DNA of 64,000 nucleotides from IMG/VR virus record IMGVR_UViG_3300042398_001156, positions 1-64,000 of that record. One strand, 5' to 3'. Of the stretch, positions 8,438 to 33,745 are shown one piece after another (within the stretch, counting starts at the first letter, position 1; each line of letters opens with the position of its first letter). The notes below the pieces were generated by a model. That model was given only the letters and a program-made list of their open reading frames with translations, had not been told where the DNA came from and ran no database searches. The position numbers and the translations under genes are program-made. The stretch is from a virus.

Positions 8438-8448
8438 ATTGTATCACA
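8438..8448 (-). promoter_or_regulatory. Extended -10 promoter for the fibre genes
   Basis: On the minus strand the sequence reads TGTGATACAAT, i.e. TGn plus TACAAT, in the 31-base gap upstream of the coiled-coil gene. It matches six other sites in the leftward block. No clear -35 box is seen. Confidence 0.65.
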
Positions 8449-8451
8449 AAT

Positions 8452-8856
8452 TTAAAACTCAAACCAAATATCATTATTTTTATTATCGGTTGGTGTTGTA
8501 CTTGATACAACAACTTTATTAGCGGTCGTTGCTTTAAACTTTTCAATGTTTTCGTCGTAACGAATAAACTGTCCGTCTTGCAAGTTAGCAATATTAAATT
8601 GTTCAAGTATAGCTAAGAGTGTATTAATAACACCTTCATCTTCAAATTCATTAAGCCCAGTAGTAGCACTAGTATAAGTACCGAACAAAGCTTTATGTAA
8701 TTTTTCAAGATACTCGACGGTTACGTTAGCTTGAAGCTTAAGTGTATTAACAACTTGATTCCATTCTTGGATCGTTAAACTATTCGCGGCTTGTTTAACT
8801 TGTTCAACAATCCCGTTTCTAACTAATGTGGGTTTCTTTTCAAGAAAAACTGCCAT
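8452..8856 (-). CDS. Small virion-cluster protein, unknown (134 aa)
   Basis: A 134-residue soluble protein: N-terminal two thirds helical (VKQAANSLTIQEWNQVVNTL), C-terminal third beta-like, ending DNKNNDIWFEF. The ending VSSTTPTDNKNNDIWFE resembles the short segments at the start of fibres and head-fibre proteins ('xxGDIWFD'), so a fibre-linked role is plausible. It sits between the membrane-protein pair and the fibre promoter. Confidence 0.75.
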   Translation of the reverse strand: MAVFLEKKPTLVRNGIVEQVKQAANSLTIQEWNQVVNTLKLQANVTVEYLEKLHKALFGTYTSATTGLNEFEDEGVINTLLAILEQFNIANLQDGQFIRYDENIEKFKATTANKVVVSSTTPTDNKNNDIWFEF

Positions 8857-8857
8857 G

Positions 8858-9325
8858 TTATTTGTTTACTACGCCTAACACGTAGCCTTTAGAAAGAAGG
8901 TACAGTTCTTTATACTTAATATGAAATGCATCAAACACACTAGCAACTGCCATACTTCCAAACAATACAATCACTGTTTCAAAGTATGATGTAAACGCTA
9001 CATCAATTGCATTTTCTATGACATACTTAAGTGTAAGACCTAGTGTAATTAACACAATAAACAATAATATCTTTGGGCTCGCTTTAACTAAACCTTTAAA
9101 TAGACTAGGTTCCCATGCGCTAACCCATTGTGGTATGTCTGACGCTAGTTTAATAATTCCTATGGTGCCTACAATAATCGTTGGCATGACAAGTCTACTG
9201 GAAACAGGCGCCTCAGTAAAACCTAACTTAATTGCAAAGTATGCAAAAGGTAAAAAATATCCTATTAAGAATCCAATCCAATAGTAAGTATTCTTTAAGT
9301 TTGCATAGTTAGGTGTGGTGCTCAT
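8858..9325 (-). CDS. Polytopic membrane protein, holin candidate (155 aa)
   Basis: Four hydrophobic segments can be seen, near residues 15-35, 43-63, 86-106 and 112-132, with a hydrophilic C-terminus. No family was recognised. It is coupled to the upstream 166-residue gene (stop and start overlap at 9325). Together the pair resembles a holin or membrane-anchored lysis unit, but an injection-related membrane protein is equally possible. Confidence 0.7.
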   Translation of the reverse strand: MSTTPNYANLKNTYYWIGFLIGYFLPFAYFAIKLGFTEAPVSSRLVMPTIIVGTIGIIKLASDIPQWVSAWEPSLFKGLVKASPKILLFIVLITLGLTLKYVIENAIDVAFTSYFETVIVLFGSMAVASVFDAFHIKYKELYLLSKGYVLGVVNK

Positions 9326-9825
9326 TACTTCGCTCCTACGTATTTACTTAATAAATCTCCCGCGGCTTTAACAACAGTCTCAACTGTTTGTGCAACCACT
9401 TCTTGGCTTACAACTGGTTTAGGTAATGCTGGTGTAACACCCGCACTTCCTTCAGAAACAACAGGCTTAACTGTCATTAACTTATTAAACTCTTCTTGCA
9501 AAGATAACTTATCTTCGATTGGAAGTTTAGATGCAATGACAATATAAGATAATGCCTTAAATGTAGTTAAGTTAACTTGTTCTAAGTAACGATCTTTAGC
9601 TTCTAATTCTTGGTGTCGCGATTCTAAAGCATTGTACTTTTGCGCAATGTCTTTGACTAACTGATTAGAGTTAGATAATTGACCTGTGCTTTGCGTACGT
9701 AATGCATTGAACTGCAAGATAGACTTAACTTGCACAACAATAAACGTTAGCAGTGTACCTACAGTCACACCACCTGCAATCGACACTCCCCAATACTCTT
9801 CTAAAAATTGAATAACTTGTTCCAT
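9325..9825 (-). CDS. Single-pass membrane coiled-coil protein (166 aa)
   Basis: One transmembrane segment near residues 14-33 follows a short acidic N-terminus. A helical coiled-coil region (about 40-90) and a proline/valine-rich linker come next, then a C-terminal helix. The topology resembles spanin-like or holin-associated proteins, though no cell-wall enzyme is nearby. A good ribosome site (AAAGGAGGAA) precedes the ATG. Confidence 0.75.
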   Translation of the reverse strand: MEQVIQFLEEYWGVSIAGGVTVGTLLTFIVVQVKSILQFNALRTQSTGQLSNSNQLVKDIAQKYNALESRHQELEAKDRYLEQVNLTTFKALSYIVIASKLPIEDKLSLQEEFNKLMTVKPVVSEGSAGVTPALPKPVVSQEVVAQTVETVVKAAGDLLSKYVGAK

Positions 9826-9841
9826 AAATTATTCCTCCTTT

Positions 9842-10777
9842 CTATTTAGGTTGGTTCTGACCAGTAACTTGGTTAGATACCGTTGACCATTGTGACGCTG
9901 TCCACTTTGTTGGGTCATTACCATACAACGAAGTCATTTGGCGTATAGTTTGTTGATATGGATCACCAGCATCAGATGCTGCCATACCTGTAGCAATTTG
10001 TCCGCGTGCATTTGCTTGGTTTAAAAAGTCTGTATAAGCTTGGTCTTGTGCAGTATTAATACCAACTTGAGCTTGCAGTCTTTGATCATTAAGCATCTGT
10101 GCATTTTGATTCAAAGTATTTACATTGGTCATTAACATTTGCATATCTTGATTTGCAATTTGTGACTCACTCATACCCGCTCTTAATCGTGCCATGCGTT
10201 CTGCACGAACTTGATCAGTAATTTGTTTAACAGTATTTGCTTGTTGCATTGCTGCTTGTTGGAAACCAACATCTGCCATCGTTGCCGCTTGTTGGGCTTG
10301 ATTAGTATAAGACTGTTCAAGCCTATTTAACATTTCTTTGCCGCCAGTTCCTGGAGCCAAAGAATATACATCTTGATAATATTCATTAAATGCAGATACT
10401 TTGCCATCTTCTCCTGTAGGAGCAGCTACTCCTGTTTCTATAAGAGTGCCTGTAGTTGTATCGTATTTATTACCTACTGTATCAAACCCTAACTTTGTAG
10501 CGTTTTGAGTAATGATTTGATTCATAGCAGCTTTTACGTTCTTAAAACGGTCAGATTCTATGCGGTTACCACCTGCATCTATTAAATTCAAAGCAACTAA
10601 TTCAGCATCAGTAAGAGGTCTACCTAATTCTACAATTTTTTCCAACAAGTCTTTTTTATTTTGTGCGTCTAAATTCCAGTTAGCATTTGTTCCAGCAACA
10701 TTTATATTATACTCTACACCATTAACTGTGCGAGTATTTCCAAACTGTTGAAGGTTTAATTTGAATTTTAACTTCAT
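9842..10777 (-). CDS. Internal virion / ejection-type protein (311 aa)
   Basis: The N-terminus MKLKFKLNLQQFG carries the NLQxF motif often seen at the start of structural proteins of Gram-positive phages. The middle and C-terminal half (about 150-265) is helical and rich in Gln, Ala, Met and Asn, as in ejection proteins of podoviruses such as T7 gp14 (a comparison of composition, not of sequence). It lies downstream of the nozzle-like gene, the usual place for such proteins. A scaffold role is less likely given its position. Confidence 0.7.
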   Translation of the reverse strand: MKLKFKLNLQQFGNTRTVNGVEYNINVAGTNANWNLDAQNKKDLLEKIVELGRPLTDAELVALNLIDAGGNRIESDRFKNVKAAMNQIITQNATKLGFDTVGNKYDTTTGTLIETGVAAPTGEDGKVSAFNEYYQDVYSLAPGTGGKEMLNRLEQSYTNQAQQAATMADVGFQQAAMQQANTVKQITDQVRAERMARLRAGMSESQIANQDMQMLMTNVNTLNQNAQMLNDQRLQAQVGINTAQDQAYTDFLNQANARGQIATGMAASDAGDPYQQTIRQMTSLYGNDPTKWTASQWSTVSNQVTGQNQPK

Positions 10778-11202
10778 ACTATTTCTCCTTTCTCTTCAAG
10801 TTCTTTAATGTGTTCATTATGTTTAATAATTAAATCACCTAAGTCTTTTTCTAAGGTTAATATTTTTAATTCAAGATCATGAATATACTTTTCAAAATCA
10901 GGGCGAACAGGCTTAGTACCCGTCAGCTGGTATTTATTATACGCTAATTCTCCTTGATATATGTGAATAATTTTTTGGTTATCATCAATTAACTTAACAG
11001 TAAAGTAAATAACTTTTTCTAAAATATTAGGTAGTTCAATGACAATATGGTTTCCTTTATATTGTTTTTCTTCAATAAACAAAACAGGATGTAAGTGTTC
11101 AGTATTAGGTTCAAACACATAGTGAATAGAAGTTTCCTTAATTAATTCAGGAACTTTCATAAGCATAACTTCTACTTTTTGATTGGCTAGTTTTAAAATC
11201 AT
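10774..11202 (-). CDS. Small structural-cluster protein (142 aa)
   Basis: The first 100 residues look beta-rich (alternating hydrophobic residues, IHYVFEPNTEHLHPVLF), and the last 40 form a charged helix with heptad spacing (LELKILTLEKDLGDLI). This domain order recurs in small phage minor-tail proteins. It overlaps both neighbours by four bases (ATGA-type coupling). No function can be assigned. Confidence 0.75.
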   Translation of the reverse strand: MILKLANQKVEVMLMKVPELIKETSIHYVFEPNTEHLHPVLFIEEKQYKGNHIVIELPNILEKVIYFTVKLIDDNQKIIHIYQGELAYNKYQLTGTKPVRPDFEKYIHDLELKILTLEKDLGDLIIKHNEHIKELEEKGEIV

Positions 11203-14200
11203 ACTCTTCTCTCCTTATAAATAATACCAAAGTTTTGAAGTTTATATAAACCTTTTGATATAAATTGAAGTTTAAGTCTAAATACTTTACCTAATCCTAG
11301 TATACTTGTTCGATGCGTAAGTAGTTTGCTAGATGAATAGTCTGAAAAATCCATTAACATATTATTGTTTTCAAAAAGATTATTAGTTAAAGAATACTTA
11401 ACAACATCGGTAGCTGTGTTCGAAATCATATTAACATCAACAAGTTCAATCAAATCTTTATTATCAGCTTTAGAAACTGTAACATAGTAAGAAATATTAT
11501 TTGAATCAATAACTTCTAGTTGTTGGTTATAAAAAGGTTTAGCAACAATTTCGTCAATCATTGTTTCAAGATTAAATAATACATTGTTTGCATTAAGATT
11601 TTTAAAAGTAACATGTAAGTCACGGAATCGTTTAAAAAGATGGTTGTTTAAATTCATATTCCCTGTATCAATTAAACAGTTAATGCCTTCTTTTTTAAAG
11701 TTATTTGTAAATGATAAGTCTACATGGTTGTCTCGTACGTTATATTCTACGAACGGTACTGTAAAAAATAACTTACTATTTGTCTGCGTAATTAATAAAT
11801 CACCGCTTTCAATAAAGCGTTTATCAAAAACATCAGTAAACGTTAACGTATCATATGCGTAATATCTATTATTTAAAACATCGTAGTTTAAAATATAAGT
11901 AATAACACCTGGCACATAATAAAATATTTTAATAAAGTTAATAGATACTAAAGCTTTAATTTTAATTTCATCCTTTTTAACACGCATAGAACTTACATAA
12001 GAAGCTAAACGTTCGTTCATGTATTGATCATAATGATCTAAAATATCGTTGGCAGCTTTATTTAAAAACTGAATACTAAAACGTGTTTCACTATCAATGG
12101 TATTACTTGGACGTATCATAAAAAGTTGCCCATCTTCTGAGTAAAATAAAACCATTTGATTAAAAATTTGTATAACGTCTGCGTACTTTTTATTAACAAG
12201 TAAGTTATATAAAACAATTTGTTTAAGCCATGCTACACCCGTAACGTTTTGTTCAATCTGATTTGTAGTTGTATTAAGTTGGGTTGTAATTGTTTCTACA
12301 CGGTAAACAGCGTAAAGATGTTGCGTTGTAAATACAAGAATAATAGTTTTATACTGTAATACTTTTACAATCTCTTCTGCAAATTCTACACGGTTGCGTT
12401 CTTTAAACCAGTAAAATTTACCTTCTTCTGAAATAAATAAAACATTTTTGTTCCATACAAGTAAACGACTATCTTCAAAGACAGTTAAACTATTGCTTGT
12501 TTGTATTTGCAACGGTTCATTAATAAGTACTTTATCTATATACGTAACACTAAATGCATCTTGTGCGTACACTAAATTAACTGTTTGTCTTAAAGAAGTG
12601 GCGTTCCATACAGCTTTTAATGTTTGACGTTCTTGATAATTTTTGCCACTGTATTCTGATTCTTGGTAAGGTCTCATGTAAAAAATAATATTAATACCTT
12701 TTTCAAAAAAACCTGCGCTTACAAGATTAGGTACATTAAGACTTACTGGTGTAAATCTGCCGACTAAACCAGTAGGGTTATTCCAACGATAATAAAAATT
12801 AGTTCTAAGATCACGGTATATTGTGTTATTAACAAAGTTAGCAGGAAATGCTGTACCACTTATAGCTTCCCATTCATTGCCACTTGGACTTTTTCTTTGT
12901 CGATAAAATGTACCTGTGCCTGCTTGTATCGTAGCATTTTCAGCTGCATTAGTAATAGTATAACGTGTCGGATTGGAATCATTTATTAATACAGCAGGTG
13001 TACCTGAAGCATACCATGGCGGCTGTGCGGTACCATAAACAGCGTTAGAAGTAAACGTACTAAAGCTAGATCCTACAGGTGTTTTAAGTGTAGTAAGATC
13101 TGTACCAATCTCCCATTTTAAAGTATCCCAGTTAAACTTATTAAAATTAAAGTCGTTAAAATAGAATGTGTTTTGTCTTACAAGATAATCTTGTGGAGTA
13201 TTAAAATAATTTAAAGAAGCAAATACAAATCTATAATATTCTGTTGTACCGCCGGGGTTATTAATAGCAAACAATTGACCAAGATACCCACTAGCAGCTG
13301 TCCATCGATAGTAACGATTATTTCTTTCATCTAAATATAAACTATTTAATTTAAATGTAGTCCCTTGATTGCTACTGTTAAGAGGTCCCCAAGTATTTGT
13401 TCCTGGTTTTACACTAGGGTTGTAACTAATAAGTTCAGACCACACTGCTTTTAATTCAGGTTGCGTTTGAATTATTTTTTGATACATTTTACCTGTACTT
13501 TGTACTTGAACAATTGTATTTAAAGGAATGTCATTAACTTCTATACCTGTTAACACTACAAGTGTTTGACCACCTTCTACTATAGTACTTTCTGTAGCAG
13601 CATAATAAGGTGCTTGTGTTCCAAATGCTGAATTAGAAGTAAATTCATTGATTGCATTTGTCTCAACATAAGTATCATTACCAGCATATGGAAGTAAATG
13701 AAAAACAACACCGTCTCTTGTTTTAAAAATATTAAGTCTTTTTATTTCTGCTATTAGTTCAGATCCTGTTAAAAGAAAATCGTATTCGTCTTCTTGTGTT
13801 TCTTTACTAAAAGTATGATACATCTTTTCAAAATCACTTATGTCATTATTAACACTAGATTGCATTAGCTTATCAAATGTTTCATACCTACCTGTACTCA
13901 CTTCTGTTTGTATATCGTACAAATAAAAAAAAGCATTGCTACTTAAACCATCAATTACTTCTATTAAAGTTTTATAATCTATAATGTTATTAATTGCGGA
14001 TTGCCAACTATTATTTCTATTTGTTATAGCAGTAAAACTTTCTTGTCCTGTACCTGTTTTATACGTACCATTACTATTACGTGAAGGAAATTCTTGTGTA
14101 ACTAACCCTTCACTTGAAACACTTTTACTACTAAACGTTCTATTTAAATTTTTTGAAACAACGTAAATTAAATAACGTGCACCCTTATAATGATTAGTTT

Positions 14201-16680: not shown

Positions 16681-16702
16681 TTCAAAAGGTCCTCACATTT
16701 TG

Positions 16703-16713
16703 ATTATAGCACA
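16703..16713 (-). promoter_or_regulatory. Extended -10 promoter before the adaptor gene
   Basis: The minus strand reads TGTGCTATAAT, a perfect TGnTATAAT element 23 bases upstream of the adaptor start, and directly after a terminator. It is the best match to consensus among the seven related sites. Confidence 0.8.
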
Positions 16714-16740
16714 AAAGTTTTTAAACAATAGTTCAATTAA

Positions 16741-16763
16741 TAAAAACACACCCGAAGGTGTGT
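16741..16763 (-). terminator. Rho-independent terminator after the scaffold-like gene
   Basis: On the minus strand a perfect 7-bp stem ACACACC / GGTGTGT closes a TTCG tetraloop and is followed by TTTTTATT. It lies just downstream of the scaffold-like gene and just upstream of the adaptor promoter. Confidence 0.9.
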
Positions 16764-16771
16764 CTTTAGTT

Positions 16772-17701: not shown

Positions 17702-17703
17702 AA

Positions 17704-17862: not shown

Positions 17863-17863
17863 T

Positions 17864-19412: not shown

Positions 19413-19413
19413 A

Positions 19414-20857: not shown

Positions 20858-20881
20858 AAGTATGCCTCCTTGTTTTCTATG

Positions 20882-20892
20882 AGTATATCATA
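20882..20892 (-). promoter_or_regulatory. Extended -10 promoter after the portal gene
   Basis: Reads TATGATATACT on the minus strand, identical to the site at 31679-31689. The sequence TTGTGT, 16 bases upstream, may serve as a weak -35 box. It serves the 161-residue gene. Confidence 0.7.
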
Positions 20893-20897
20893 ACATA

Positions 20898-20928: not shown

Positions 20929-20951
20929 CTTTGTGTAATATTTACAATTGT

Positions 20952-22688
20952 TTACTTAAAGCCTTGCCCCATTTGTGGGTCTTGTTGCATCGCATTCTTT
21001 TCTTCAATTAAGATTGTAATTGCTTGTTGAGCGGCTTGTTCTTCAGATAACCCTTGCGATAGTAACCGACTAAAGATTGAAGCAAAATTAGTAAGATCAG
21101 CCACCAATGTTTCAGCAGTACTATCTTGTTCATTCTTTTCAAGTCTTTGTAAAAACAAATCTTTTTGTGGAAAGTCTGAGTACTTAATAAGATCTTGTGG
21201 CGTAATAATCTGAGGCTTGATTTGATACTGTGCTTGCATTTCGTATAAAGCTTTAGCAGAATCAAACAAGTTTGCTTGGTTCATCGGCAGTAATGTAGAT
21301 GCTGCAATATTATAATCAAACTTCATACCACGTTCACGTAAGACATCAAATTTAATATTACGTTGTTCGATAACTTTATTAGTACCTGTTGCAGATAGTT
21401 TTGGAACGACATAAGTTTTATCACCGCCATACGCAAAGTAGTATTCTAATACAAGTTTAGTTAAGTCTTCACAGAATTCTTCAAGTAAAGTAATCCGTGA
21501 GTTATCCGTAAGCATGGTTACACGTGCTTGAAACGCTTGCGTCGCTCCGGTAGTTTGAATACTGTTTGTCATACGACCTTTATAGTATGGGTCAACACCC
21601 GTCACTTGAAAGATAGACTGTTCTAAACGTTGTTTAATATTACCTAAGTCCGGAATAACTGGAACGTCAACATAATAAACTAAATTACGCGGATCACCTT
21701 TGGTTTCAAACGAAGCACCAGGAGTACCACCGTAGTCTGCAAACGATCTCATGTTAATACGTCCATCTGTATTAACAAAGCGTACGCGATTAAGTACGCG
21801 ATATGGTTGCGTAGCTTCCATTGAGTCGAGCATGTTAAGGGCAACCACCGTATTAAGAATCTTTGTTAGCTTAGAGTTTCCATAAGGATTACCATCTGGA
21901 CGTTGAGGAGTGTAAACAACTACTGGAAAGCGTTTAAGTGGAATGTTTAAGTTTTCATAAATAATCGTATCTTCGTTTAACATAAAGACTTGATCGATCG
22001 TACCATTCTTATTACGCATAAAGCATTCAACCAAAGAGACTGTGCGGTTGTTAGTGATTGTATTATTTTCATAACCTGCAATACGATTGGTTGCAGTCTT
22101 ATCACTCATGACACCTTTATACTTTTCCATAAACTCTTTAACACCATCTTTAAAGTCAGGGTTATCAACTAAAGTGTCGATGTTAACGGCACGTTCAATA
22201 AAGATTGCTTCACCATCTTTATAAGAATCAACACTTGGATCAAAGTAAAGTTCTTGTGGCGACATTGCTTTTAGTTTAATGTGGCCTTTTGCACTGTCCC
22301 AGTCTACGCGCATAGCACCAACGTTATACAACTCAGCGTTTTCGCCAACGTGTAAGAATTTATTTTTCATTCCCCACTTGCTCCAGTTGTAAGCAATGAA
22401 TGCGTTAAGATCTTGCACTGTCTTTTCATCTTGAATATATCTAGGCGTTAACGTTCCAATAAACGAACCGCTATAAATAGAGTTCATAAAACCTTGGACA
22501 ACATATTCAAAGTAGTTCCAGTCAGGTGTAATACTATATTCTTTTAAGTTCTTTTTAAAGTAAGCCCAGAACTCGCCTTTATAAAGTGAACGAATTAAAC
22601 GCCACTCACGTAGCTGTCCTTGTTTAAACGAACGAAACTCATCAAACTTTTGTTTAACTTTAAAAATATCGTAGGTAAACTTAGGCAT
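20952..22688 (-). CDS. Portal protein (578 aa)
   Basis: The dodecameric portal forms the vertex through which DNA is packaged and ejected. The sequence has the features of podovirus portals: an N-terminal helical region, the central 'TPDWNYFEYVVQGFMNSIYSG' and 'MRVDWDSAKGHIKLKAMSPQELYFDPSVDS' segments, a long stem helix after 'MLDSMEATQPYRVLNR', and a C-terminal glutamine-rich helix. Length is normal for short-tailed phages. Its start overlaps the stop of the preceding 149-residue gene, and it follows the terminase. Confidence 0.9.
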   Translation of the reverse strand: MPKFTYDIFKVKQKFDEFRSFKQGQLREWRLIRSLYKGEFWAYFKKNLKEYSITPDWNYFEYVVQGFMNSIYSGSFIGTLTPRYIQDEKTVQDLNAFIAYNWSKWGMKNKFLHVGENAELYNVGAMRVDWDSAKGHIKLKAMSPQELYFDPSVDSYKDGEAIFIERAVNIDTLVDNPDFKDGVKEFMEKYKGVMSDKTATNRIAGYENNTITNNRTVSLVECFMRNKNGTIDQVFMLNEDTIIYENLNIPLKRFPVVVYTPQRPDGNPYGNSKLTKILNTVVALNMLDSMEATQPYRVLNRVRFVNTDGRINMRSFADYGGTPGASFETKGDPRNLVYYVDVPVIPDLGNIKQRLEQSIFQVTGVDPYYKGRMTNSIQTTGATQAFQARVTMLTDNSRITLLEEFCEDLTKLVLEYYFAYGGDKTYVVPKLSATGTNKVIEQRNIKFDVLRERGMKFDYNIAASTLLPMNQANLFDSAKALYEMQAQYQIKPQIITPQDLIKYSDFPQKDLFLQRLEKNEQDSTAETLVADLTNFASIFSRLLSQGLSEEQAAQQAITILIEEKNAMQQDPQMGQGFK

Positions 22689-23137
22689 TATTGTTTACCT
22701 TCTTTCTTTTTCGGTGGCTCAGGCATAACTGGACCATCCATAATTTCTTCAAAGGTTTTAGCAATCGCATCGTTTTGACGTTGTGTGCTTGCAATAATTG
22801 CTTCTTCAATTTGTCTTTGACGAATACGTTCTTTTTTTGCAGCTTCTTCTTTTTGTTGTTCAGTTAATTCTTCTTCAGCTTCTTCTGGGTTATCTCCCAT
22901 TGTATTATGTTTTGCAGCATCAATGATTGCTTGAATAGGCAAAGTAATATCTCCATCGTTATCAGGAGTTCTGCCTGCTTTATTAACTCCAGTTTTATTT
23001 CGGGATGTACGCGCCGAGCGGTTTGTTAAAATTTTCTTCGGATCCTTCATCATTTTCGTCATATACACTAGTTGCATATACTGGCCCACTGCTACCAGAA
23101 TAAGTAATATTACTGCCAAAGCTGTTAGAATTTCCAT
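22688..23137 (-). CDS. Membrane-anchored coiled-coil protein overlapping TerL (149 aa)
   Basis: Residues 5-24 are hydrophobic (LTALAVILLILVAVGQYMQL), and the rest is acidic, helical and glutamine/glutamate-rich. The start is supported by a strong AAAGGAG site ten bases upstream. About 143 bases of its 5' end lie inside the terminase gene in another frame, so the membrane segment and the flexible terminase tail are encoded together. Function is unknown. The neighbours suggest packaging or head assembly at the membrane. Confidence 0.75.
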   Translation of the reverse strand: MEILTALAVILLILVAVGQYMQLVYMTKMMKDPKKILTNRSARTSRNKTGVNKAGRTPDNDGDITLPIQAIIDAAKHNTMGDNPEEAEEELTEQQKEEAAKKERIRQRQIEEAIIASTQRQNDAIAKTFEEIMDGPVMPEPPKKKEGKQ

Positions 23138-24866
23138 CGTTTATGTTCTCCTTTAATGGATCATAATATTGAACTGTCTTTTTAATTATAGCATTCTTTT
23201 GTTTATCATGAACGAAAGCTTTTCCACTAGGCAAATATACACTAAGTTTTAATTCTTGTAAATTATGTGGTAGCTCAACAACAACAAACTCTAACGCAGT
23301 AACACCGTGGTCATTACCATCTTCAGGTTTGTCTGTCGGTGTTCCGTTTTTGTCAAGTTTAAATTTATAGTTAAGTGCTTCATCAATTAAAAACTCACAT
23401 GTAGAAAATACTTCCATTTGATTATGGTTAAGTAATGAATTCATTTTAATAATACGTGCATCATGTGATGCAAACGAAGGATCAAAATATAAACCTTCTG
23501 CTTCAAACATACTGCCAATAGTGACTAAGTTACTTTCACGCTTGCTATAACTACGTCCGTCAAATCTAGGTAGCATAAGTAAACCATCGAGATCTGTACC
23601 ATTGATTCTAGTTTCTTTACGATACTCTTTTGCCAGCGTTTTAATATCAGAGTTGTTGATACGTAGTTCGTCATACACATAAAGCTTCTTTGTTTCTGTA
23701 GAAAATGCTGTATAAATCACGTGAGTTGGGTCATTTATGCCGTAATCTACCCCAATTGCGTAGTATAATACGCGCTTTCCTGACTCGTCAAATGCTCTAG
23801 GAAGTGGGTGTGGAGGGACAATACTGATCCCAAAGTTAGGGAATACTAGGTTACTTGAGAAGTTAAAGCTACCTTTATAGTATTGTTGGATGTATGCTTT
23901 GGATTTTCCTCTAGTTTGTTCTTGTTCATACGTAGCAGGTAGGTAAGGGTTAGCACTTGTAGAGATAATCTGTGTATACTTTTGCGGATCTCGATCCTTG
24001 TTGTACTTATATCCTTCGTTATATGCATCTCCATAAAACTCTACAGTTTCTGAATCTAATAAAAACTTAGACTTTACCCAACCTGAGTCAGGGTTTGTTT
24101 CTAAGTTAATGTGTCTAGCATCGATTCGATACTTAGGTTTAAAGATTTGTTGGTTTGGATCCCATTGCATAACAGGTTGTCCGTTTGAATCTGTTTCAGG
24201 AATCATAGCATTGGTATTACGGATACGAGATTGCAACATGGTGAACGCAGCGAAGTTAACATCAGATGATTCTACAATTACCGCCATCGTTAAGTTAATC
24301 GACTTTAGTTTTGTTTCATCATCAAACGAACGAAACAATATTTCAGACCCATTGGTTAATTGCAGTTCATGCTTTTGATCGTTCTTACGTCGAATAAGTT
24401 TCATAGGAAAAATACTATAAAACTCTTTGACAAACGTAGCTTCTAACGCTGGGTATGTTCGTGCAGTTACTGCAACACGTGCTCCAGGTATTAACATAAT
24501 ATGTTTAATCACATCTTCGATGTTGGCACGAGACTTACCAGAACCATATCCACCTGCTGTCATCTTATAACGTTCACGTCTACGTAAGAACATTGCTTGA
24601 TATGCTGTTGGTTTAAAAGTATTAACCAATGTTCCACACTCTGGGCATTCTTTAAACGTACTGCTTTCACTACCGTTAACAGCTTTAGCTGCTACTAAAG
24701 GTTTGTTACAACGTGGGCAATGTTGAATATGACTAACATTAATATATTGTGGGGCTGCTTCTGCTAACGACGCTTGTGGTTTTATAGAAATACTTTTGGT
24801 AATGTCAAAAACTTCACCGGTATTTTTGTCAACTAAATGTTGTTCATCAAGAATTGACTTAGGCAT
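22995..24866 (-). CDS. terL: Terminase large subunit (623 aa)
   Basis: TerL is the ATP-driven motor and nuclease that packages phage DNA. A Walker A motif GGYGSGKS lies near residue 106, a Walker B-like strand (MAVIVESSD) near 196, and a first nuclease aspartate in 'AIGVDYGINDPTH' near 354. There is also an N-terminal zinc ribbon (CPRCNKPL...CPECGTL, residues 51-79). Length and domain order fit normal large terminases. The C-terminus is low-complexity (SNSFGSNITYSGSSG) and is overlapped by the next gene. Confidence 0.95.
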   Translation of the reverse strand: MPKSILDEQHLVDKNTGEVFDITKSISIKPQASLAEAAPQYINVSHIQHCPRCNKPLVAAKAVNGSESSTFKECPECGTLVNTFKPTAYQAMFLRRRERYKMTAGGYGSGKSRANIEDVIKHIMLIPGARVAVTARTYPALEATFVKEFYSIFPMKLIRRKNDQKHELQLTNGSEILFRSFDDETKLKSINLTMAVIVESSDVNFAAFTMLQSRIRNTNAMIPETDSNGQPVMQWDPNQQIFKPKYRIDARHINLETNPDSGWVKSKFLLDSETVEFYGDAYNEGYKYNKDRDPQKYTQIISTSANPYLPATYEQEQTRGKSKAYIQQYYKGSFNFSSNLVFPNFGISIVPPHPLPRAFDESGKRVLYYAIGVDYGINDPTHVIYTAFSTETKKLYVYDELRINNSDIKTLAKEYRKETRINGTDLDGLLMLPRFDGRSYSKRESNLVTIGSMFEAEGLYFDPSFASHDARIIKMNSLLNHNQMEVFSTCEFLIDEALNYKFKLDKNGTPTDKPEDGNDHGVTALEFVVVELPHNLQELKLSVYLPSGKAFVHDKQKNAIIKKTVQYYDPLKENINDGNSNSFGSNITYSGSSGPVYATSVYDENDEGSEENFNKPLGAYIPK

Positions 24867-24867
24867 A

Positions 24868-26200: not shown

Positions 26201-26201
26201 T

Positions 26202-26672
26202 TTATTTACCTCCTTTTTGTATCATATTATGCAGTATCGTCCGATAAGGTTCCGCCACCATTTCCATATCTTGCATATGAACATCATAGTGACCATTTTT
26301 AATGAGCTCAGCGTGGTACATAAACTTACCGAACGCGTCATCTGATTCTGGAATATACTGACGGGCAAACAATTCTATTTCTAATCCTAAGGTTTCATCA
26401 CCTTTAGATTGTTCTTCAGGATATGGCATTTCGATTTCTACTTCGATTGGCATTTCAATTCCCATTTCCATGGTTTCTGGGAATACATACAGGTATTGTT
26501 CGTCTACGCTATAGTCCACACCTTTTTCTTCAAGGTGGTCCATCATTGATAGCATTAACATTTGATCAACATCTGTTAAATCAACGACAATCTTTTCCGG
26601 CCATTGTTCATAAGGAACACTCATGTCATCGAGCATCATCATAAATTCAGTACATTTTGGATCCATGTGCAC
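26202..26672 (-). CDS. Acidic protein, unknown (156 aa)
   Basis: A highly acidic, methionine-rich protein. Residues 20-60 carry the domain shared with the following 96-residue protein, and the C-terminal third is helical (KFMYHAELIKNGHYDV). The GTG codon at 26672 is preferred as start because a GGAGG site lies seven bases upstream; the ATG two codons later lies too far. It is the first gene after a promoter-like site at 26693-26703. Confidence 0.65.
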   Translation of the reverse strand: MHMDPKCTEFMMMLDDMSVPYEQWPEKIVVDLTDVDQMLMLSMMDHLEEKGVDYSVDEQYLYVFPETMEMGIEMPIEVEIEMPYPEEQSKGDETLGLEIELFARQYIPESDDAFGKFMYHAELIKNGHYDVHMQDMEMVAEPYRTILHNMIQKGGK

Positions 26673-26692
26673 AAGTTATCCTCCGCCTTTAA

Positions 26693-26703
26693 AGTATATC
26701 ACA
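26693..26703 (-). promoter_or_regulatory. Extended -10 promoter, start of packaging operon
   Basis: Minus-strand TGTGATATACT with a possible -35 (TTTACT) sixteen bases from the -10 hexamer. It lies inside the end of the VRR-NUC gene, upstream of the acidic genes and terminase. Confidence 0.7.
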
Positions 26704-27052
26704 AAAATTCTTTCAGTAAATTTGTTTCTACTTCTGTAATAACATTACCATACTTTATAAAAAATTCACAACGTTCTTTTAAAACGTTTAGCTCTTCGTC
26801 CGTTGCAATTAAAAAGTACCGGTTAGGACTTGACGCTTTAATATAGTCTCGCCACCACTCTTGTAGTGGAGTCAGGTCATAGTAACTGGTACCTTTGAAC
26901 TCGACGTAGATCGTACCGCCGTGTTTAGGCAATTGCAAAAACCTGTCGGGAAACCCTTTGGAGGTGACGACAGGTCCTTTAATAGCGACAATCTCTTTGG
27001 ACTGGCACCAGCGTACGAAAATACTTTCTAATCGTTTCTCAGTTGTGCTCAC
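26699..27052 (-). CDS. VRR-NUC domain nuclease (117 aa)
   Basis: A PD-(D/E)XK-type nuclease of the short stand-alone VRR-NUC type, which cleaves DNA structures. The core is present: FVRWCQSKEIVAIKG, then SKGFPDRFL (proline-aspartate), YVEFKG (glutamate-x-lysine) and PLQEWWRDYI (conserved glutamine). Length is normal for the stand-alone type. The start is a GTG overlapping the previous stop (TAGTG). It may trim packaging or replication intermediates. Confidence 0.85.
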   Translation of the reverse strand: MSTTEKRLESIFVRWCQSKEIVAIKGPVVTSKGFPDRFLQLPKHGGTIYVEFKGTSYYDLTPLQEWWRDYIKASSPNRYFLIATDEELNVLKERCEFFIKYGNVITEVETNLLKEFL

Positions 27053-27510
27053 TACTCTATGATACCATTTTTACGCAATGTATCAATGGTACCTTTGTAG
27101 AGATCACGTTGTTCTTCTAAGTGTAAATTTTCTAAACGTAAGTCTTTGATTTGTTTACTGGCGTTACTTATCACGTTAAACAATAAGTTAAACAAGTCTC
27201 GCGTGATAACATGTGCACGTTCACCTGCGCTGTTGATATATTGGTTACCATAGTTAGCTTTGGTGTTCTTTTCAACAATACAAAACCGACGCTTGTTACT
27301 ATTAGGCATCGATGTTTCGCATTCCAATAACTGTAAGCTGGTTGTATCTAACAAGATCCGTTCACTGCCTGGTTTAGAAACTACCATGCCCATACCACCG
27401 ACCACTTCTTTAGTAACTTGTTCAGGATTTTCAGTTGCAGTGTCTAACGTTGCGTTACGTTTTTCTTGCGTGACTTGTTGAATCTTTTTATTAATTGCTT
27501 CGAAGTCCAT
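27052..27510 (-). CDS. Unknown coiled-coil-ended protein (152 aa)
   Basis: A short basic helical N-terminus, a mixed middle (RRFCIVEKN...YGNQYINSAGERAHVITRDLF) and a C-terminal coiled coil (KQIKDLRLENLHLEEQRDLYKG). No family was recognised. It is coupled to the VRR-NUC gene. The middle segment's pattern suggests a small DNA- or protein-binding domain. Confidence 0.6.
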   Translation of the reverse strand: MDFEAINKKIQQVTQEKRNATLDTATENPEQVTKEVVGGMGMVVSKPGSERILLDTTSLQLLECETSMPNSNKRRFCIVEKNTKANYGNQYINSAGERAHVITRDLFNLLFNVISNASKQIKDLRLENLHLEEQRDLYKGTIDTLRKNGIIE

Positions 27511-27512
27511 GT

Positions 27513-27839
27513 TTATAACTTCTTTCCGTGTTTATACGGACGGGTAATATTGAACTGGTGTTTTTCTAAAACGGCAGCTTCCATGTCGATGCCAAAGTAT
27601 TCAGCCAAATCTAATACGCGGATAATGACGTCGGCAAGTTCAGCTGGGATACCTTCTGGTTTACCACCTTCGCTATAGTATGCTTCTTTTTCTTTACGAC
27701 CATTGCGGTATTCTTCTAAAGCTTCGGACAACTCTGAGTGAACCAGCGCAATAAGTTCAGGAATATCTCGGTGTTTTTCCCACCAGCCATGTTCTTTAGC
27801 GTTGTGATGAATCATTTCTTGTAGTTGTTTAAGATGCAT
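27513..27839 (-). CDS. MazG-like nucleotide pyrophosphohydrolase (108 aa)
   Basis: MazG-type enzymes hydrolyse nucleoside triphosphates to monophosphates. The metal-binding core is present: 'ALVHSELSEALEEYRNG' (glutamates near residues 32-40) and 'PAELADVIIRVLDLAEYFG' (glutamate-aspartate near 73). The length matches the single-domain form. Phage versions have been linked to ppGpp or nucleotide-pool control, which is known of other phages and not shown here. A GGAGG-like site precedes the ATG weakly (AAGGATT). Confidence 0.85.
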   Translation of the reverse strand: MHLKQLQEMIHHNAKEHGWWEKHRDIPELIALVHSELSEALEEYRNGRKEKEAYYSEGGKPEGIPAELADVIIRVLDLAEYFGIDMEAAVLEKHQFNITRPYKHGKKL

Positions 27840-27841
27840 AA

Positions 27842-28045
27842 TTAATCCTTCTTTTCTACGTAACAGATTTCATAACCCATTAACGTGTGTTTTGTTTTTT
27901 TAAACTTACCATTAAGCGCCAGTGAGACCATCGGTCTCGACACGGCTATGTACGCAGCGACTTCGTCTTGTGTTTTAAAAATATGCCATTCATCTGTGTC
28001 TAGTTTACGCACACCGATTAAACCACGTCTATGCTTCTTGTTCAT
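27842..28045 (-). CDS. NUMOD1-like DNA-binding protein (67 aa)
   Basis: The segment 'FKTQDEVAAYIAVSRPMVSLALNGKFKKTKHTLMGYEI' fits a helix-turn-helix DNA-binding unit of the NUMOD1 type, found as a tail on homing endonucleases. Here it stands alone and no nuclease domain is attached. It may be a regulator or an orphan module. Its start overlaps the stop of the preceding gene. Confidence 0.65.
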   Translation of the reverse strand: MNKKHRRGLIGVRKLDTDEWHIFKTQDEVAAYIAVSRPMVSLALNGKFKKTKHTLMGYEICYVEKKD

Positions 28046-28229
28046 CTTTAACTTCCTTAAGTTGATATTTTAGAAATGTCCAACCGTCTTCAGCAATTTG
28101 GGGAATACTAACGAGTAAATCCCCACCATCTAAAACTTGTAACACTGTGCCTATCATTCCTTTACGGATACCTTTGACAATATCTTTAAGGTGGATGTTA
28201 TGGACAACGACTTTACTTCCTTTTTGCAC
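28029..28229 (-). CDS. Small KOW/SH3-like protein (66 aa)
   Basis: A small beta-rich protein with the pattern KGSKVVVHNI...GMIGTVLQVLDGGDLLVSIP, which fits a KOW or SH3-like barrel. The GTG codon at 28229 is preferred as the start because an AAAGGAG site lies seven bases upstream. It overlaps both neighbours. KOW-type barrels often bind nucleic acid or RNA polymerase, which is only a possibility here. Confidence 0.65.
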   Translation of the reverse strand: MQKGSKVVVHNIHLKDIVKGIRKGMIGTVLQVLDGGDLLVSIPQIAEDGWTFLKYQLKEVKDEQEA

Positions 28230-28401
28230 GGGCTTTCTCCTTTGCTTTATCAGCGGCGATATCTCTTTCGACTTCTAAGTAACCAAGCTTATGCTCTAAC
28301 TGTAATCGGATCTTGTCATTACGTTCCATCTTAATACTTAGTTTTAAAAATGTAATTGCTTTATCGTACGTTTCGAATGTACGCCCTAAGATTCTAATCA
28401 T
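28213..28401 (-). CDS. Small basic helical protein (62 aa)
   Basis: A 62-residue very basic helical protein (MIRILGRTFETYDKAITFLK... ending in KAKEKARAKRK). It has a GGAGG site and overlaps the genes on both sides. No family recognised; likely nucleic-acid binding from charge alone. Confidence 0.6.
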   Translation of the reverse strand: MIRILGRTFETYDKAITFLKLSIKMERNDKIRLQLEHKLGYLEVERDIAADKAKEKARAKRK

Positions 28402-28786
28402 GTGCTCCTCCTTTCGTTACGGCTGGGTAAACCTGCAGCAAATCTTTTAACATCTCTGGTCGATCTGCATAGATCCGTTTACGCAGTAACTCTTTTGTTA
28501 ACTGGTACATCGGATTGTTTTCATTAAACATCACGTAGTAGTAGAACTCGGTGCCGTGTTTACAAACATACTTATCGTAATACAGATACTGCCCTGCAAC
28601 TTGGTAGAAGTCTCTGATCGTTAGTCTTCCATCTCTTTCAAACACATTGTGTTTATAAATCTGGTACAGTGTTGTCGCTTTAACCAAGGCTGTTTTACTT
28701 CTTATCGCATCTAACTCTTCTATGTTATGTTCAATCTTGTGGGCTTTGATATCAATAAACTTTGTAAAGAATTCTAGTGTTTTCAT
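28394..28786 (-). CDS. Unknown protein (130 aa)
   Basis: A helical, basic protein with many aromatic residues (tyrosine cluster in TLYQIYKHNVFERDGRLTIRDFYQVAGQYLYYDKYV). No motif was recognised. It is coupled to the upstream 59-residue gene by an ATGA overlap and to the downstream basic gene. Placement downstream of the helicase suggests a replication accessory role, which is inference. Confidence 0.6.
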   Translation of the reverse strand: MKTLEFFTKFIDIKAHKIEHNIEELDAIRSKTALVKATTLYQIYKHNVFERDGRLTIRDFYQVAGQYLYYDKYVCKHGTEFYYYVMFNENNPMYQLTKELLRKRIYADRPEMLKDLLQVYPAVTKGGAHD

Positions 28787-28962
28787 AAGTAGTCCGCCAT
28801 AATTGATTCTAAATCTTTAATTGCTATAATTTTAACTTCACCTGTTTTTGTAACTATCGTTATCTTACTATCGACAATTTTTACTTTTATACTTAGCTCT
28901 CGGTTGATATAGATTCCGTCAGGTTCTTTGACGAAACCCATATTCAGTAATTCAGTGTGCAT
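28783..28962 (-). CDS. Small protein between helicase and unknown gene (59 aa)
   Basis: Translating the minus strand gives 59 residues starting MHTELLNMGFVKEPDGIYINRELSI, with alternating hydrophobic residues typical of a small beta sheet. The start codon overlaps the helicase stop (TGATG) and its own stop overlaps the next start (ATGA). This double coupling, with no gap, supports a real gene. No function is known. Confidence 0.75.
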   Translation of the reverse strand: MHTELLNMGFVKEPDGIYINRELSIKVKIVDSKITIVTKTGEVKIIAIKDLESIMADYL

Positions 28963-30551
28963 CAGAGTAGCAACTTCTGGATTTCATTATCGAAGAAGGT
29001 GGTGCGTTTTACACCTTGTACATAATAAGAACCGTTCTTATGTATCATCGTTGCTTTGGCTAAGTGTCCTTCAATTAAATTTTGGAAACCGTTAGTACCT
29101 TTGTTACGAATTGCTTTGCGTCCATTGGCTTTACAGTATTGTTCGTACATCCGATAGAGATCACTGCGCAACATTTCATCTTTGTTATTTGTCGTAACGT
29201 TAATGCATTCTTGCCAGAACATCCCGATGATGTCTGAGTCTACTCGGTACTGTAAGAACTTTTGTTCGATGTTATGTGGCTTTGGTTCTTGTTTAATCTT
29301 AAGTCCCTTATGCTTAAAGTAATTGAGATATAACCAAGCTTGGATTTTAGGGTACTCTTCTGCCAACTTGTTTAAGAGGTTGGGGTCCTCTTTTACAATC
29401 TTAAAATCAAATGGGACTAAGATTAATCGTTTGAAAATAGGATCAAGTGCAGACCAGTCTCCAAAGTTAATCAACGAGTTAGCAATCACAAGCGGCGTTC
29501 CACAAACATTAACTTCATAGTTTCTGGAATACGCTGGACGAATGACAGTCATGATCTTATTGCCAAACTCATCGCGTCCACCTTCAGTAATTTCTTTAAT
29601 GTTCTGTGTAGATGCAACCATGCGTTCATCGATCTCATTAAAGATTAATAAACTTCTACCTTCGGTTGCAGCCAACGCGTCATCTTTTTTATACGAGCTT
29701 TGTGGTTGTGAGTTTAGATACTCAGCGTTCATACGGACAGCATGCGGTCCAAGAATATCTTGTAAGACTTTGATGACTGTACTCTTACCGTTACGACCTG
29801 ACTCACCGATAAAGTAAATCATCACTTGGTTGTAGTTGTATGGTGACATCAAGTACGCTAACACTTTATGAAAGTAAGCAACTCTATCTTTGTCGTTTAA
29901 CATATACTCACTGATCAACTGTAACCATAATGTCGGTTCATCGTCTGTCGTGTTAATCGGAACTGGACTAATGTGCATCAAGTGTAAGTCTTGGGTATCT
30001 TTAAAGGCAACTGGTTTTAGATTGAAGCTGACTTTGCTCATGTCGAGAATCGCACGGCGTCCATCCGTGGTTTCAAAGTAGCGTAAGTTTTCGGTTGCAT
30101 TCACAATGTCAGCACTCTTACGTATCGTAAAGATAATTGCTGTCTTGATCCGTGCAGCTAATGCGTTGAGTCTACCTGGAACAAAGAATGCTTTGGCGTA
30201 TCGGTAAAAGATTTCATCCTTTGCCGCTTCAGCTTCTTCAGCAACGACACTGAAAAAGTCTGTCAACATATTGCGTAGCTTGGTCTCGTCTTGTTCGAAG
30301 TGCCATAGACCATTGGTGTTGTCATAGACCAACATCTGTTCTTTGTCTTCGACATACTTGAAGTACGAACCTAACCACTCAAATGTTTTTTGTGGAATCG
30401 GAATCGCAGCATCACTTGTCAACTCAGCGACGAACCTTTTAATTTCTGGTTCGGACAAGTTCGAACGATCTTGAAACATTGTGAATACTTCTTTCACGTG
30501 CTTACGAAGATGCGCTTTGTAACTCGTCAAGTAGTTATTAAAAACTGCCAT
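28962..30551 (-). CDS. SF3 / D5-type replicative helicase (529 aa)
   Basis: D5-like proteins unwind DNA at phage and virus replication forks. The Walker A motif GESGRNGKST lies near residue 242, Walker B (SLLIFNEID) near 288 and a motif C-type NVCGTPLVIANS near 338, giving an SF3 AAA+ core. The C-terminal helical domain (DMFWQECINVTTNNKDEMLRSDLYRMYEQYCK) resembles a poxvirus D5/phage P4-type ending. No primase domain is attached; the TOPRIM primase is encoded separately and rightward. It is first in its transcription unit with a -35/-10 promoter upstream. Confidence 0.9.
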   Translation of the reverse strand: MAVFNNYLTSYKAHLRKHVKEVFTMFQDRSNLSEPEIKRFVAELTSDAAIPIPQKTFEWLGSYFKYVEDKEQMLVYDNTNGLWHFEQDETKLRNMLTDFFSVVAEEAEAAKDEIFYRYAKAFFVPGRLNALAARIKTAIIFTIRKSADIVNATENLRYFETTDGRRAILDMSKVSFNLKPVAFKDTQDLHLMHISPVPINTTDDEPTLWLQLISEYMLNDKDRVAYFHKVLAYLMSPYNYNQVMIYFIGESGRNGKSTVIKVLQDILGPHAVRMNAEYLNSQPQSSYKKDDALAATEGRSLLIFNEIDERMVASTQNIKEITEGGRDEFGNKIMTVIRPAYSRNYEVNVCGTPLVIANSLINFGDWSALDPIFKRLILVPFDFKIVKEDPNLLNKLAEEYPKIQAWLYLNYFKHKGLKIKQEPKPHNIEQKFLQYRVDSDIIGMFWQECINVTTNNKDEMLRSDLYRMYEQYCKANGRKAIRNKGTNGFQNLIEGHLAKATMIHKNGSYYVQGVKRTTFFDNEIQKLLL

Positions 30552-30569
30552 GTCTGTATCTCCTATCTT

Positions 30570-30600
30570 GGAATTATCCCGCTTTCATCGGGCTTTTTCC
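30570..30600 (-). promoter_or_regulatory. Hairpin in the helicase leader
   Basis: CCCG / CGGG with a 7-base loop at 30578-30592 is flanked by GGAA and TTCC, giving a two-part stem on the minus strand. The plus strand reads a short stem plus T5, so it could also act as a weak rightward terminator. Confidence 0.4.
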
Positions 30601-30613
30601 TACTTCTGCTATG

Positions 30614-30642
30614 AGTATAGCATAGTAGAATTTATTTGTCAA
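30614..30642 (-). promoter_or_regulatory. Sigma-70-type promoter of the helicase operon
   Basis: Minus-strand TTGACA (30637-30642) is a perfect -35, 17 bases from TATACT (30614-30619), and TATGCTATACT matches the extended -10 seen at the other sites. It is the most complete promoter in the window. Confidence 0.9.
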
Positions 30643-30657
30643 CACATGCAACACAGA
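30641..30657 (-). repeat. 17-nt operator-like element, copy 1
   Basis: Minus-strand TCTGTGTTGCATGTGTT, one mismatch from a second copy at 31563-31579. It overlaps the -35 box of the helicase promoter by two bases, so a bound protein could block that promoter. Confidence 0.6.
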
Positions 30658-30660
30658 AAG

Positions 30661-30675
30661 TACACAGTCTGTGTA
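30661..30675. promoter_or_regulatory. 15-bp palindrome, TACACAG T CTGTGTA
   Basis: A perfect palindrome with a one-base centre, in the gap upstream of the helicase promoter. Its half-sites TACACAG and CTGTGTA recur at 33750-33774 with an 11-base centre. Looks like a binding site for a dimeric protein. Confidence 0.55.
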
Positions 30676-30686
30676 GTACATCTTGT

Positions 30687-30866
30687 TTACATTGTCAAGT
30701 AAAATATTAAACTTGCGAGTCCACCCACTGCTGCAGAAACTCCTAACACATAAAGCAGTCCTATAATAAATGGCAACCATCCAAACATGATCAGTTCATA
30801 TACTGGTGTACGTTGGACAAACAACATAAAGAATAAGGCGACACTAAATGCGACAATGAATACCAT
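30687..30866 (-). CDS. Small two-pass membrane protein (59 aa)
   Basis: Translating the minus strand gives 59 residues: MVFIVAFSVALFFMLFV, then a short polar loop, then FGWLPFIIGLLYVLG and a last hydrophobic segment, ending LIFYLTM. The start overlaps the stop of the 224-residue gene (TAATG) and has an AAGGAG site. It is probably real and membrane-bound, but its role is not known. It differs in frame from a longer but less plausible reading in the same stretch. Confidence 0.75.
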   Translation of the reverse strand: MVFIVAFSVALFFMLFVQRTPVYELIMFGWLPFIIGLLYVLGVSAAVGGLASLIFYLTM

Positions 30867-31540
30867 TACTTTTTCTCCTTGCTGACGATGTCCGCTTCAT
30901 AGAGGAAGTCGTCTGTGTCTTCGGTGACCCAAGCATGCTCTTGTTCACAGCTATACTCCTGGGTATTAATCTTCCAAGGTTTGTCTTTGTACTCCTTGGT
31001 CACGAAGCTCGGTTCATACCAGCGTAAGATCCGGTTGTTGGGTTGCAGTGCGAACTGTCCTGTCTCCAACATGATGAAGTGATGGGACTTATGTTCTTGG
31101 GGATCTTCGGATAACGTGAAGTCCATCCCGTTGTTCTCGTTCGCTCCCCATTGGATCGTGTACAAGTAAGTCCCTTCTAACGTCGTCCGGTTTTTCATCC
31201 TGACATCGACACTAGCATTATACACATAGTTCAAGGTCACTAAGCTAAAGACTTTAGAGAAGCAGTCCCACAACTGTAGACTATGGAACGGGTAAGTCTC
31301 CCAGACCTTTTCGTCTTCAGGGATCTTCCACGCCAAGGCAGAGATCGGTAACTTGTCCCGCATCATGCCATACTCGGTCAAGACTTGGAACAGTGCCGCC
31401 GAACCTTCGTTGCATCTGATTGAGATCAGAATTGCCTTTGTGTACTTGCCTACGTATTCAGGCGCATCAGGCTTGTCAAAAAAGAACCCATCCCGTACGT
31501 ATACTTTCATTGGCGGCAAGCTTGCTTCGATGTATGCCAT
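30866..31540 (-). CDS. Conserved hypothetical early-control protein (224 aa)
   Basis: A 224-residue globular protein beginning MAYIEASLPPMKVYVRDGFFF, with segments such as KAILISIRCNEGSAALFQVLTEYGMMRDKLPIS and a tryptophan/tyrosine-rich C-terminal half. From memory, related proteins of unknown role occur in many phages. It is the first gene leftward from the control region, with an extended -10 promoter and a GGAG site. No enzymatic residues are evident. Confidence 0.75.
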   Translation of the reverse strand: MAYIEASLPPMKVYVRDGFFFDKPDAPEYVGKYTKAILISIRCNEGSAALFQVLTEYGMMRDKLPISALAWKIPEDEKVWETYPFHSLQLWDCFSKVFSLVTLNYVYNASVDVRMKNRTTLEGTYLYTIQWGANENNGMDFTLSEDPQEHKSHHFIMLETGQFALQPNNRILRWYEPSFVTKEYKDKPWKINTQEYSCEQEHAWVTEDTDDFLYEADIVSKEKK

Positions 31541-31557
31541 AGTGATCTCCTATCCGT

Positions 31558-31568
31558 AGTATAACACA
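31558..31568 (-). promoter_or_regulatory. Extended -10 promoter for the 224-aa gene
   Basis: Minus-strand TGTGTTATACT (TGn plus TATACT). The 17-nt operator-like element overlaps it at 31563-31579. It also carries TATACTAC, the repeat unit of the control region. Confidence 0.7.
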
Positions 31569-31579
31569 GGCAACACAGA
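31563..31579 (-). repeat. 17-nt operator-like element, copy 2
   Basis: Minus-strand TCTGTGTTGCCTGTGTT, 16 of 17 bases identical to the copy at the helicase promoter. It partly covers the -10 region of the 224-residue gene's promoter. Confidence 0.6.
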
Positions 31580-31605
31580 TATACACAACAACCTGCAGAA
31601 CCTGT

Positions 31606-31650
31606 GCACCTGCTTCTGTGATAGCTGCCGAACTCACGCACCTGCTTCTG
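31606..31650 (+). repeat. 13-bp direct repeat GCACCTGCTTCTG
   Basis: Two perfect copies at 31606-31618 and 31638-31650, starts 32 bp apart (about three helical turns). Such spacing places both on the same DNA face, as expected for protein-binding sites. Confidence 0.7.
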
Positions 31651-31678
31651 GTAAGACAAGCGGTCGGTTTCTGGGTTT

Positions 31679-31689
31679 AGTATATCATA
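31679..31689 (-). promoter_or_regulatory. Extended -10 promoter in the control region
   Basis: Minus-strand TATGATATACT, identical to the site at 20882-20892. TGGACA 19 bases upstream is a possible -35. It would give a leftward transcript with a long leader reaching the 224-residue gene. Confidence 0.6.
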
Positions 31690-33739: not shown

Positions 33740-33745
33740 CATAGT

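Follow-up and report, generated by a model that had tools for sequence, protein, structure and literature searches.

In Thermus phage P23-45, the virion RNA polymerase gp96 is fused to the tape-measure protein. The middle and late genes of this phage are expressed from host promoters of the extended -10 class, to which the phage protein gp39 moves the Thermus polymerase (PMC7403470). Extended -10 promoters consist of T-17 R-16 T-15 G-14, any one base, and a TATAAT-like hexamer; they bypass the contact between sigma region 4 and a -35 box and function without any factor of the gp39 kind (PMC7403470). The virion RNA polymerase of the Schitoviridae (N4-like phages) has about 3,500 residues (PMC12633501). 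Here, we describe an extended -10 element and a giant gene with polymerase-like motifs in a stretch of 64,000 nucleotides (nt), hereafter the window, which covers positions 1 to 64,000 of the 75,916-base phage record IMGVR_UViG_3300042398_001156 and represents most of a tailed-phage genome. A sequence-only reading of the window had noticed repeated copies of the element on the leftward strand and proposed that the leftward and rightward gene blocks use different polymerases.

The two blocks form arms that diverge at 31.5-32.5 kilobases (kb) and converge at about 47 kb, with the rightward arm spanning approximately 32.4 to 46.8 kb. Nine related records (G001-G009; the record of the window is G000) were retrieved via the terminase. 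Because of its near-identity to the window's record (99.97% over 56,083 bases), G001 was left out of independent counts. G002-G005 are long relatives with up to about 35% DNA divergence from the window's record in aligned blocks, and G006-G009 are short records; counts for five phages below refer to G000 and G002-G005. Scans of viral contigs by motif pattern and by polymerase profile returned the same five phages each time, and a terminase profile scan of viral contigs yielded one further distant fragment (L049). None of 50,697 phage records matched the DNA of window positions 8,000-32,000.

Extended -10 elements of the leftward arm

All seven copies of TRTGNTAYAMT that the sequence-only reading had placed on the leftward strand are present (Table 1), and the window contains no further match on either strand. 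Searching the whole record gave eight matches, again all leftward, the eighth lying beyond the window at 72413. Six of the window copies had been described as sitting at the start of transcription units, and for gene starts this is borne out: the distance to the following leftward start codon is 17-62 nt at six sites and 138 nt at the seventh (31679). Taken alone, the window count is weak evidence (7 versus 3.03 expected), because 5 of 100 dinucleotide shuffles equal it and because the consensus was fitted to these very sites.

Across the five phages we found 37 exact matches, every one on the terminase-carrying (leftward) strand: eight each in G000, G002, and G003, six in G004, and seven in G005. 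The reversed pattern, used as a control, gave 0, 1, 4, 1, and 1 matches in G000, G002, G003, G004, and G005 (seven in total). The short records G006-G009 added 2, 2, 1, and 1 matches, also without exception on the terminase strand. Thirty of the 37 fall into leftward gaps (9,341 nt) and four into the divergent gap (2,180 nt); three lie in called leftward coding sequence (282,599 nt), two of them probably being G004 sites within called open reading frames (ORFs). Neither the rightward gaps (7,690 nt) nor the rightward coding sequence (65,362 nt) of the five phages held a match, in agreement with the reported lack of an equal in front of rightward genes; the motif is not equally frequent in coding sequence or in rightward gaps. 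In 29 of the 37 cases the site ends 10-27 nt upstream of a called start codon. For the record of the window, finding all eight copies in the minus strand of leftward gaps has a p of about 2e-14 under a simple model of uniform placement.

The same signal emerges from less restrictive counts. Matches with one mismatch number 11 leftward versus 3 rightward in leftward gaps and 3 versus 3 in rightward gaps, and in the leftward gaps an unbiased 4+4-base dyad count brings out TATG-1-TATA and TGTG-1-TATA. Among the one-mismatch matches, CGTGNTATAMT forms a further conserved class, found ahead of the gene at 72473-72814 and of its G002 and G005 counterparts.

Orthologous positions were aligned by hand for G000, G003, G004, and G005, and 29 of them fall within contigs. 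The motif is exact at 27; one carries a single mismatch (G003, position of site 30614), and one, the counterpart of 31679, was looked for and not found in G005. In G003, the ortholog of site 31679 directly precedes a 41-residue ORF. Two matches, G003 25248 and G004 67753, have no ortholog at the same place. The shuffles that reach seven might suggest that AT-rich DNA yields such sites by chance and that the consensus gathers them after the fact. This reading is contradicted by these conservation data and is extremely improbable, since strand, position, and conservation in four relatives all speak for real sites; in the nearest named phage, the pattern is about as frequent as expected by chance (2 versus 1.38).

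Individual sites add detail to this picture. A terminator-like hairpin lies directly upstream of site 20882 and another, judged by eye, upstream of 72413, which is what one would expect of sites that each begin a unit. Site 26693 is 26 nt ahead of the called start at 26666 and 20 nt ahead of an alternative start at 26672, and the operon behind it leads to the large terminase. Among the window sites, only 30614 adds a consensus -35 box to its extended -10, and its layout of TTGACA and a 17-base spacer is kept in all four genomes that hold this place, namely G002, G005, and G003 (TATGATAAAAT) besides that of the window. At the giant gene, the hexamer is only 10-12 nt away from the ATG in all five phages, so that the message would be almost leaderless if this site is used.

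The phage motif agrees with the extended -10 element of the primary sigma factor at every fixed position. Like extended -10 promoters of the form TRTGnTATAAT, the sites stand just before gene starts. Their -35 matches are at chance level, the best match averaging 3.10 of 6 positions versus 3.01 in shuffled upstream DNA (29 sites, four phages), which would fit independence from a -35 box. The identity of the element speaks for the host's RNA polymerase in complex with its primary sigma factor, and the sites are very probably sigma-A-type extended -10 promoters of the leftward arm. From the observed place, strand, and conservation of the sites, the identity of the element, and the missing -35 signal, we infer that the host enzyme uses them. 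With a sigma-A-type factor, it would read them from the TRTGNTATAMT element alone and would start the leftward operons there, which comprise the terminase and portal genes, those for structure and tail, those for leftward replication, and the giant gene. Since promoter 30614 precedes the primase/helicase gene, the leftward arm does not consist purely of late genes.

Several observations weigh against this assignment. Unlike in typical extended -10 promoters, TATACT is about as common as TATAAT here, with half of the sites carrying TATACT, and several leftward gaps lack the motif, some of them owing to errors of the gene caller. Furthermore, two different queries of bacterial genome contigs returned no relatives and thereby no host. 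The promoter class as such is already known; its confinement to one genome arm, which also sets it apart from typical extended -10 promoters, and the presence of a giant polymerase-like gene behind such a site are the noteworthy part.

The information of the element is packed into a single 11-base block lacking a -35 box, and the phage encodes a polymerase-like protein, so the block might instead be recognized by a phage RNA polymerase, either the giant protein described below or another. We regard this as very unlikely. The block matches the published extended -10 element position by position, which for an unrelated enzyme would require a coincidence, and site 30614 has its TTGACA at exactly 17 bases in all four genomes that contain the site. 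In addition, the giant gene itself lies behind such a site, so that a first-acting virion polymerase would be transcribing its own gene for the next generation. Host polymerase stays the preferred reader of these sites, and a refinement of this reading is that a gp39- or AsiA-like factor remodels the holoenzyme to need the extended -10 only. A phage factor that removes -35 recognition from the host enzyme could favor -35-less sites, in line with the chance-level -35 boxes across the site set and with the action of gp39 in P23-45. No gp39-like factor or other factor altering -35 recognition was identified in this phage, and extended -10 promoters do not depend on one; we consider remodeling rather unlikely.

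Table 1. Features of the window and its record (positions above 64,000 are record positions).
Feature	Position	Strand	Remarks
Tail-fibre gene	990-6461		leftward arm
Extended -10 TGTGATACAAT	8438..8448	-	17 nt ahead of gene start 8420; ortholog in G002, G003, G004, G005
Extended -10 TGTGCTATAAT	16703..16713	-	22 nt ahead of gene start 16680; kept in 4/4 relatives
Extended -10 TATGATATACT	20882..20892	-	24 nt ahead of gene start 20857; kept in 4/4 relatives
Portal-like gene	20952-22688		leftward arm; PHROG 'head-tail adaptor'
Large terminase	22995-24866		leftward arm
Extended -10 TGTGATATACT	26693..26703	-	overlaps end of upstream gene; kept in 4/4 relatives
Primase/helicase	28962-30551		leftward arm
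-35 TTGACA, 17-base spacer, TATGCTATACT	30614..30642	-	62 nt ahead of primase/helicase start 30551
Extended -10 TGTGTTATACT	31558..31568	-	17 nt ahead of gene start 31540
Extended -10 TATGATATACT	31679..31689	-	tandem upstream copy, 138 nt ahead of start 31540
Five TATACTAC boxes	31883..31963	+	divergent gap; candidate control or origin element between arms
Conserved structured-RNA candidate	32093..32284 (192 bases)	+	leader of rightward arm; closed by long-range helix
Rightward arm	33162..46844	+	DprA-like, clamp-loader-like, primase, helicase, DNA polymerase, exonuclease, and Sak4-like genes; no motif copy
Giant ORF, window part	47089..64000	-	8,437 codons in all; starts at record 72402; adjoins rightward arm
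Putative RNA-polymerase active-site motifs	52153..54855	-	GWKIWLGMWGFKG at residue 6013; GADNDGD, with DNDGD at residue 6535
Extended -10, eighth copy	72413-72423 (beyond window)	-	10 nt ahead of giant-gene ATG at 72402

The rightward arm and the divergent gap

Sigma-70-like sites were scored in four phages as pairs of -35 and -10 boxes with credit for TG, and compared with shuffled controls. The rightward strand of rightward gaps showed no excess (4 versus 6.2 +/- 2.5 in shuffles), and the leftward gaps contained 29 sites on their own strand versus 8.9 +/- 3.7. The opposite, rightward strand of the leftward gaps was raised as well (15 versus 6.5 +/- 2.7), which makes this measure less clean than the motif count and not purely strand-specific. 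No extended -10 match was detected on the rightward strand of the divergent gap in any of the five phages. In four phages, a search for a repeated rightward motif, made by counting dyads in the rightward gaps, recovered only ribosome-binding-site and TATA words.

These results bear on the proposal that host RNA polymerase reads both arms, with the rightward arm forming one operon behind a promoter that lies in the divergent gap and either departs from the consensus or depends on an activator; the conserved AT-rich palindrome near 31983 would be one such place. The rightward arm lacks a repeated motif, its genes are tightly packed in an operon-like manner, and the divergent gap has conserved AT-rich and boxed elements, all of which would suit such an arrangement. 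Against it, no combination of -10 and -35 boxes or extended -10 exceeds expectation on the rightward strand in four phages, and the leftward arm of the same phages has strong consensus sites throughout. We regard a single host enzyme for both arms as a serious possibility, if a somewhat doubtful one.

The TATACTAC boxes, the palindrome, and the structured-RNA stretch of the divergent gap are conserved elements of putative function. Three of the five TATACTAC boxes follow a 9-base period, with reversed copies upstream. As the cluster occurs only in the divergent gap and has these reversed copies nearby, the boxes were set aside as rightward promoters and listed as a control or origin element. 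The structured-RNA candidate folds with a z-score versus shuffles of -4.61 on the plus and -2.87 on the minus strand, and five of its pairs show two-sided changes among five sequences (six when the other strand is folded); Rfam gave no match for it.

Hairpins before several rightward genes were also considered as N4-like hairpin promoters and rejected: inspection by eye revealed no common loop, and one of the loop types precedes a leftward gene as well. The small hairpin concerned, with the loop GTATAGGT or GCATAGGT, is found at about 40992 (plus strand) before the helicase gene at 41031 and at record position 72857 (minus strand) before the leftward gene at 72814. Its stems at both places vary between relatives yet remain paired.

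A giant leftward gene with polymerase-like motifs

The end of the window cuts the giant leftward ORF, leaving 5,604 amino acids, the last two thirds of the protein. In the five phages, the giant proteins have 8,437, 8,038, 8,228, 7,903, and 7,858 residues, with conserved ends and a very variable middle. All five contain GADxDGD, which resembles the DxDGD/DxDxD metal-binding motif in double-psi beta-barrel (DPBB) A of two-barrel RNA polymerases, and they do so despite an identity to the window's protein near this motif of just 26-27% in three homologs (53% in G002). In four of the five proteins, GxKxWLG...GFKG lies 514-536 residues upstream of GADxDGD; the fifth, that of G003, has KIWLG...GFKG without the first glycine. 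The likeness of this upstream motif to the lysine motif of RpoB (DPBB-B) was judged by eye. In single-chain two-barrel polymerases such as P23-45 gp96 (PMC10770324), the DxDGD barrel comes second. The first barrel of such enzymes is the one with the lysines, and the motifs of the giant protein stand in this order. From the resemblance of these motifs to a two-barrel active site, we consider it probable that the giant protein holds an RNA polymerase.

Attempts to confirm this by other means count against it. Searches with pieces of the giant ORF gave no Pfam or PHROGs match for the polymerase region, and this region had neither a significant match among PDB sequences nor a tblastn match in phages. 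The best PDB matches, an acetyl-CoA synthetase and a designed protein, were rejected as not significant. Comparison with P23-45 gp96 by hhalign and hmmsearch was likewise not significant. Two AlphaFold2 models, with a mean predicted local distance difference test score (pLDDT) of 33.6 and 47.1, were unusable, being too poor for a fold search. Moreover, shuffling one such long protein 500 times produced DxDGD by chance in 50 cases. Many polymerase families of this kind share little sequence outside the DxDxD region (PMC10770324).

In G003, the giant protein has an extra stretch of about 240 residues shortly after the putative polymerase motifs (about L028:7550-8350). It is absent from the other four proteins and, by eye, resembles an inserted folded domain.

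Like P23-45, the phage combines a giant protein containing a DxDGD motif with -35-less extended -10 promoters for other genes. Unlike in P23-45, where the motif is near the N-terminus of a 5,002-residue protein, it lies about 6,535 residues into 8,437 here; no sequence homology is demonstrable, and neither a gp64-like second polymerase nor a gp39-like factor was found. A giant protein with which the phage introduces transcription into its host is known from the Schitoviridae as well; here, this role is putative and read from sequence. The motifs of the present protein are of the two-barrel kind, unlike the virion RNA polymerase of the Schitoviridae, which is of the T7-like class. The nearest named phages by terminase and DNA polymerase, the Paenibacillus phages API480 and SV21 (31% and 29% identity, respectively), differ in having a genome of 45 kb and the motif at chance level only, and the API480 annotation has no giant gene, its longest coding sequence measuring about 4.9 kb.

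Different polymerases for the two blocks, as the sequence-only reading had it, therefore hold up in part. The leftward half stands, with a host-type extended -10 confined to that arm, and a second enzyme for the rightward half is plausible. It gains from the lack of a sigma-70-like excess, the lack of a rightward extended -10 in the divergent gap, and the giant gene with its polymerase-like motifs. On the other side, the search for a rightward motif came up empty, a single unrecognized promoter may serve the whole rightward arm as one operon, and profile and structure tests all failed. With slightly less than even confidence, we suggest that another enzyme, most likely the virion-carried RNA-polymerase-like part of the giant protein, is the first to transcribe the rightward arm. 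Use of the giant protein's polymerase on that arm is itself close to an even call, though falling a little short of one. Tentatively, the genome could be split by arm: a single-chain two-barrel polymerase of the virion (residues about 6,000-6,500) would act on the right, and host polymerase would then act on the left. In such a split, the rightward replication arm would use an undescribed promoter type, and the leftward arm would include the gene of the polymerase itself.

If true, one promoter code is enough to predict, from sequence alone, which leftward transcripts an uncultured phage group makes, and the motif-empty rightward arm points to one giant gene as the likely second polymerase. 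The protein would then be a far larger and differently built addition to the few cases of phages delivering an RNA polymerase into their host cell. Whether -35-less host promoters co-occur with giant virion polymerases, as they do in P23-45, could be tested directly in this group. The literature searched, outside whose coverage most subscription papers lie, held no report of this phage group or of an equally large polymerase-like phage protein.

Other conserved elements near the rightward genes

A conserved non-coding stretch at 34940-35042, which contains ...CTTTCCCCCTAG..., lies ahead of the gene at 35043 and is common to G003, G004, and G005. Close to the point where the arms converge, positions 46893-46971 (plus strand) encode an RNA that resembles tRNA and transfer-messenger RNA (tmRNA). 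Its Rfam tmRNA score of 38.5 bits (E 1.6e-12) is under the gathering score of 47. This RNA, seen in four of the five phages and not in G004, has a CCA end, a T arm, and an acceptor stem whose G3-U70 pair corresponds to the alanine identity of tmRNA. An inverted repeat flanks the RNA. It offers no space for a tag or an mRNA-like part, and it may serve trans-translation as a decoy or a regulator.

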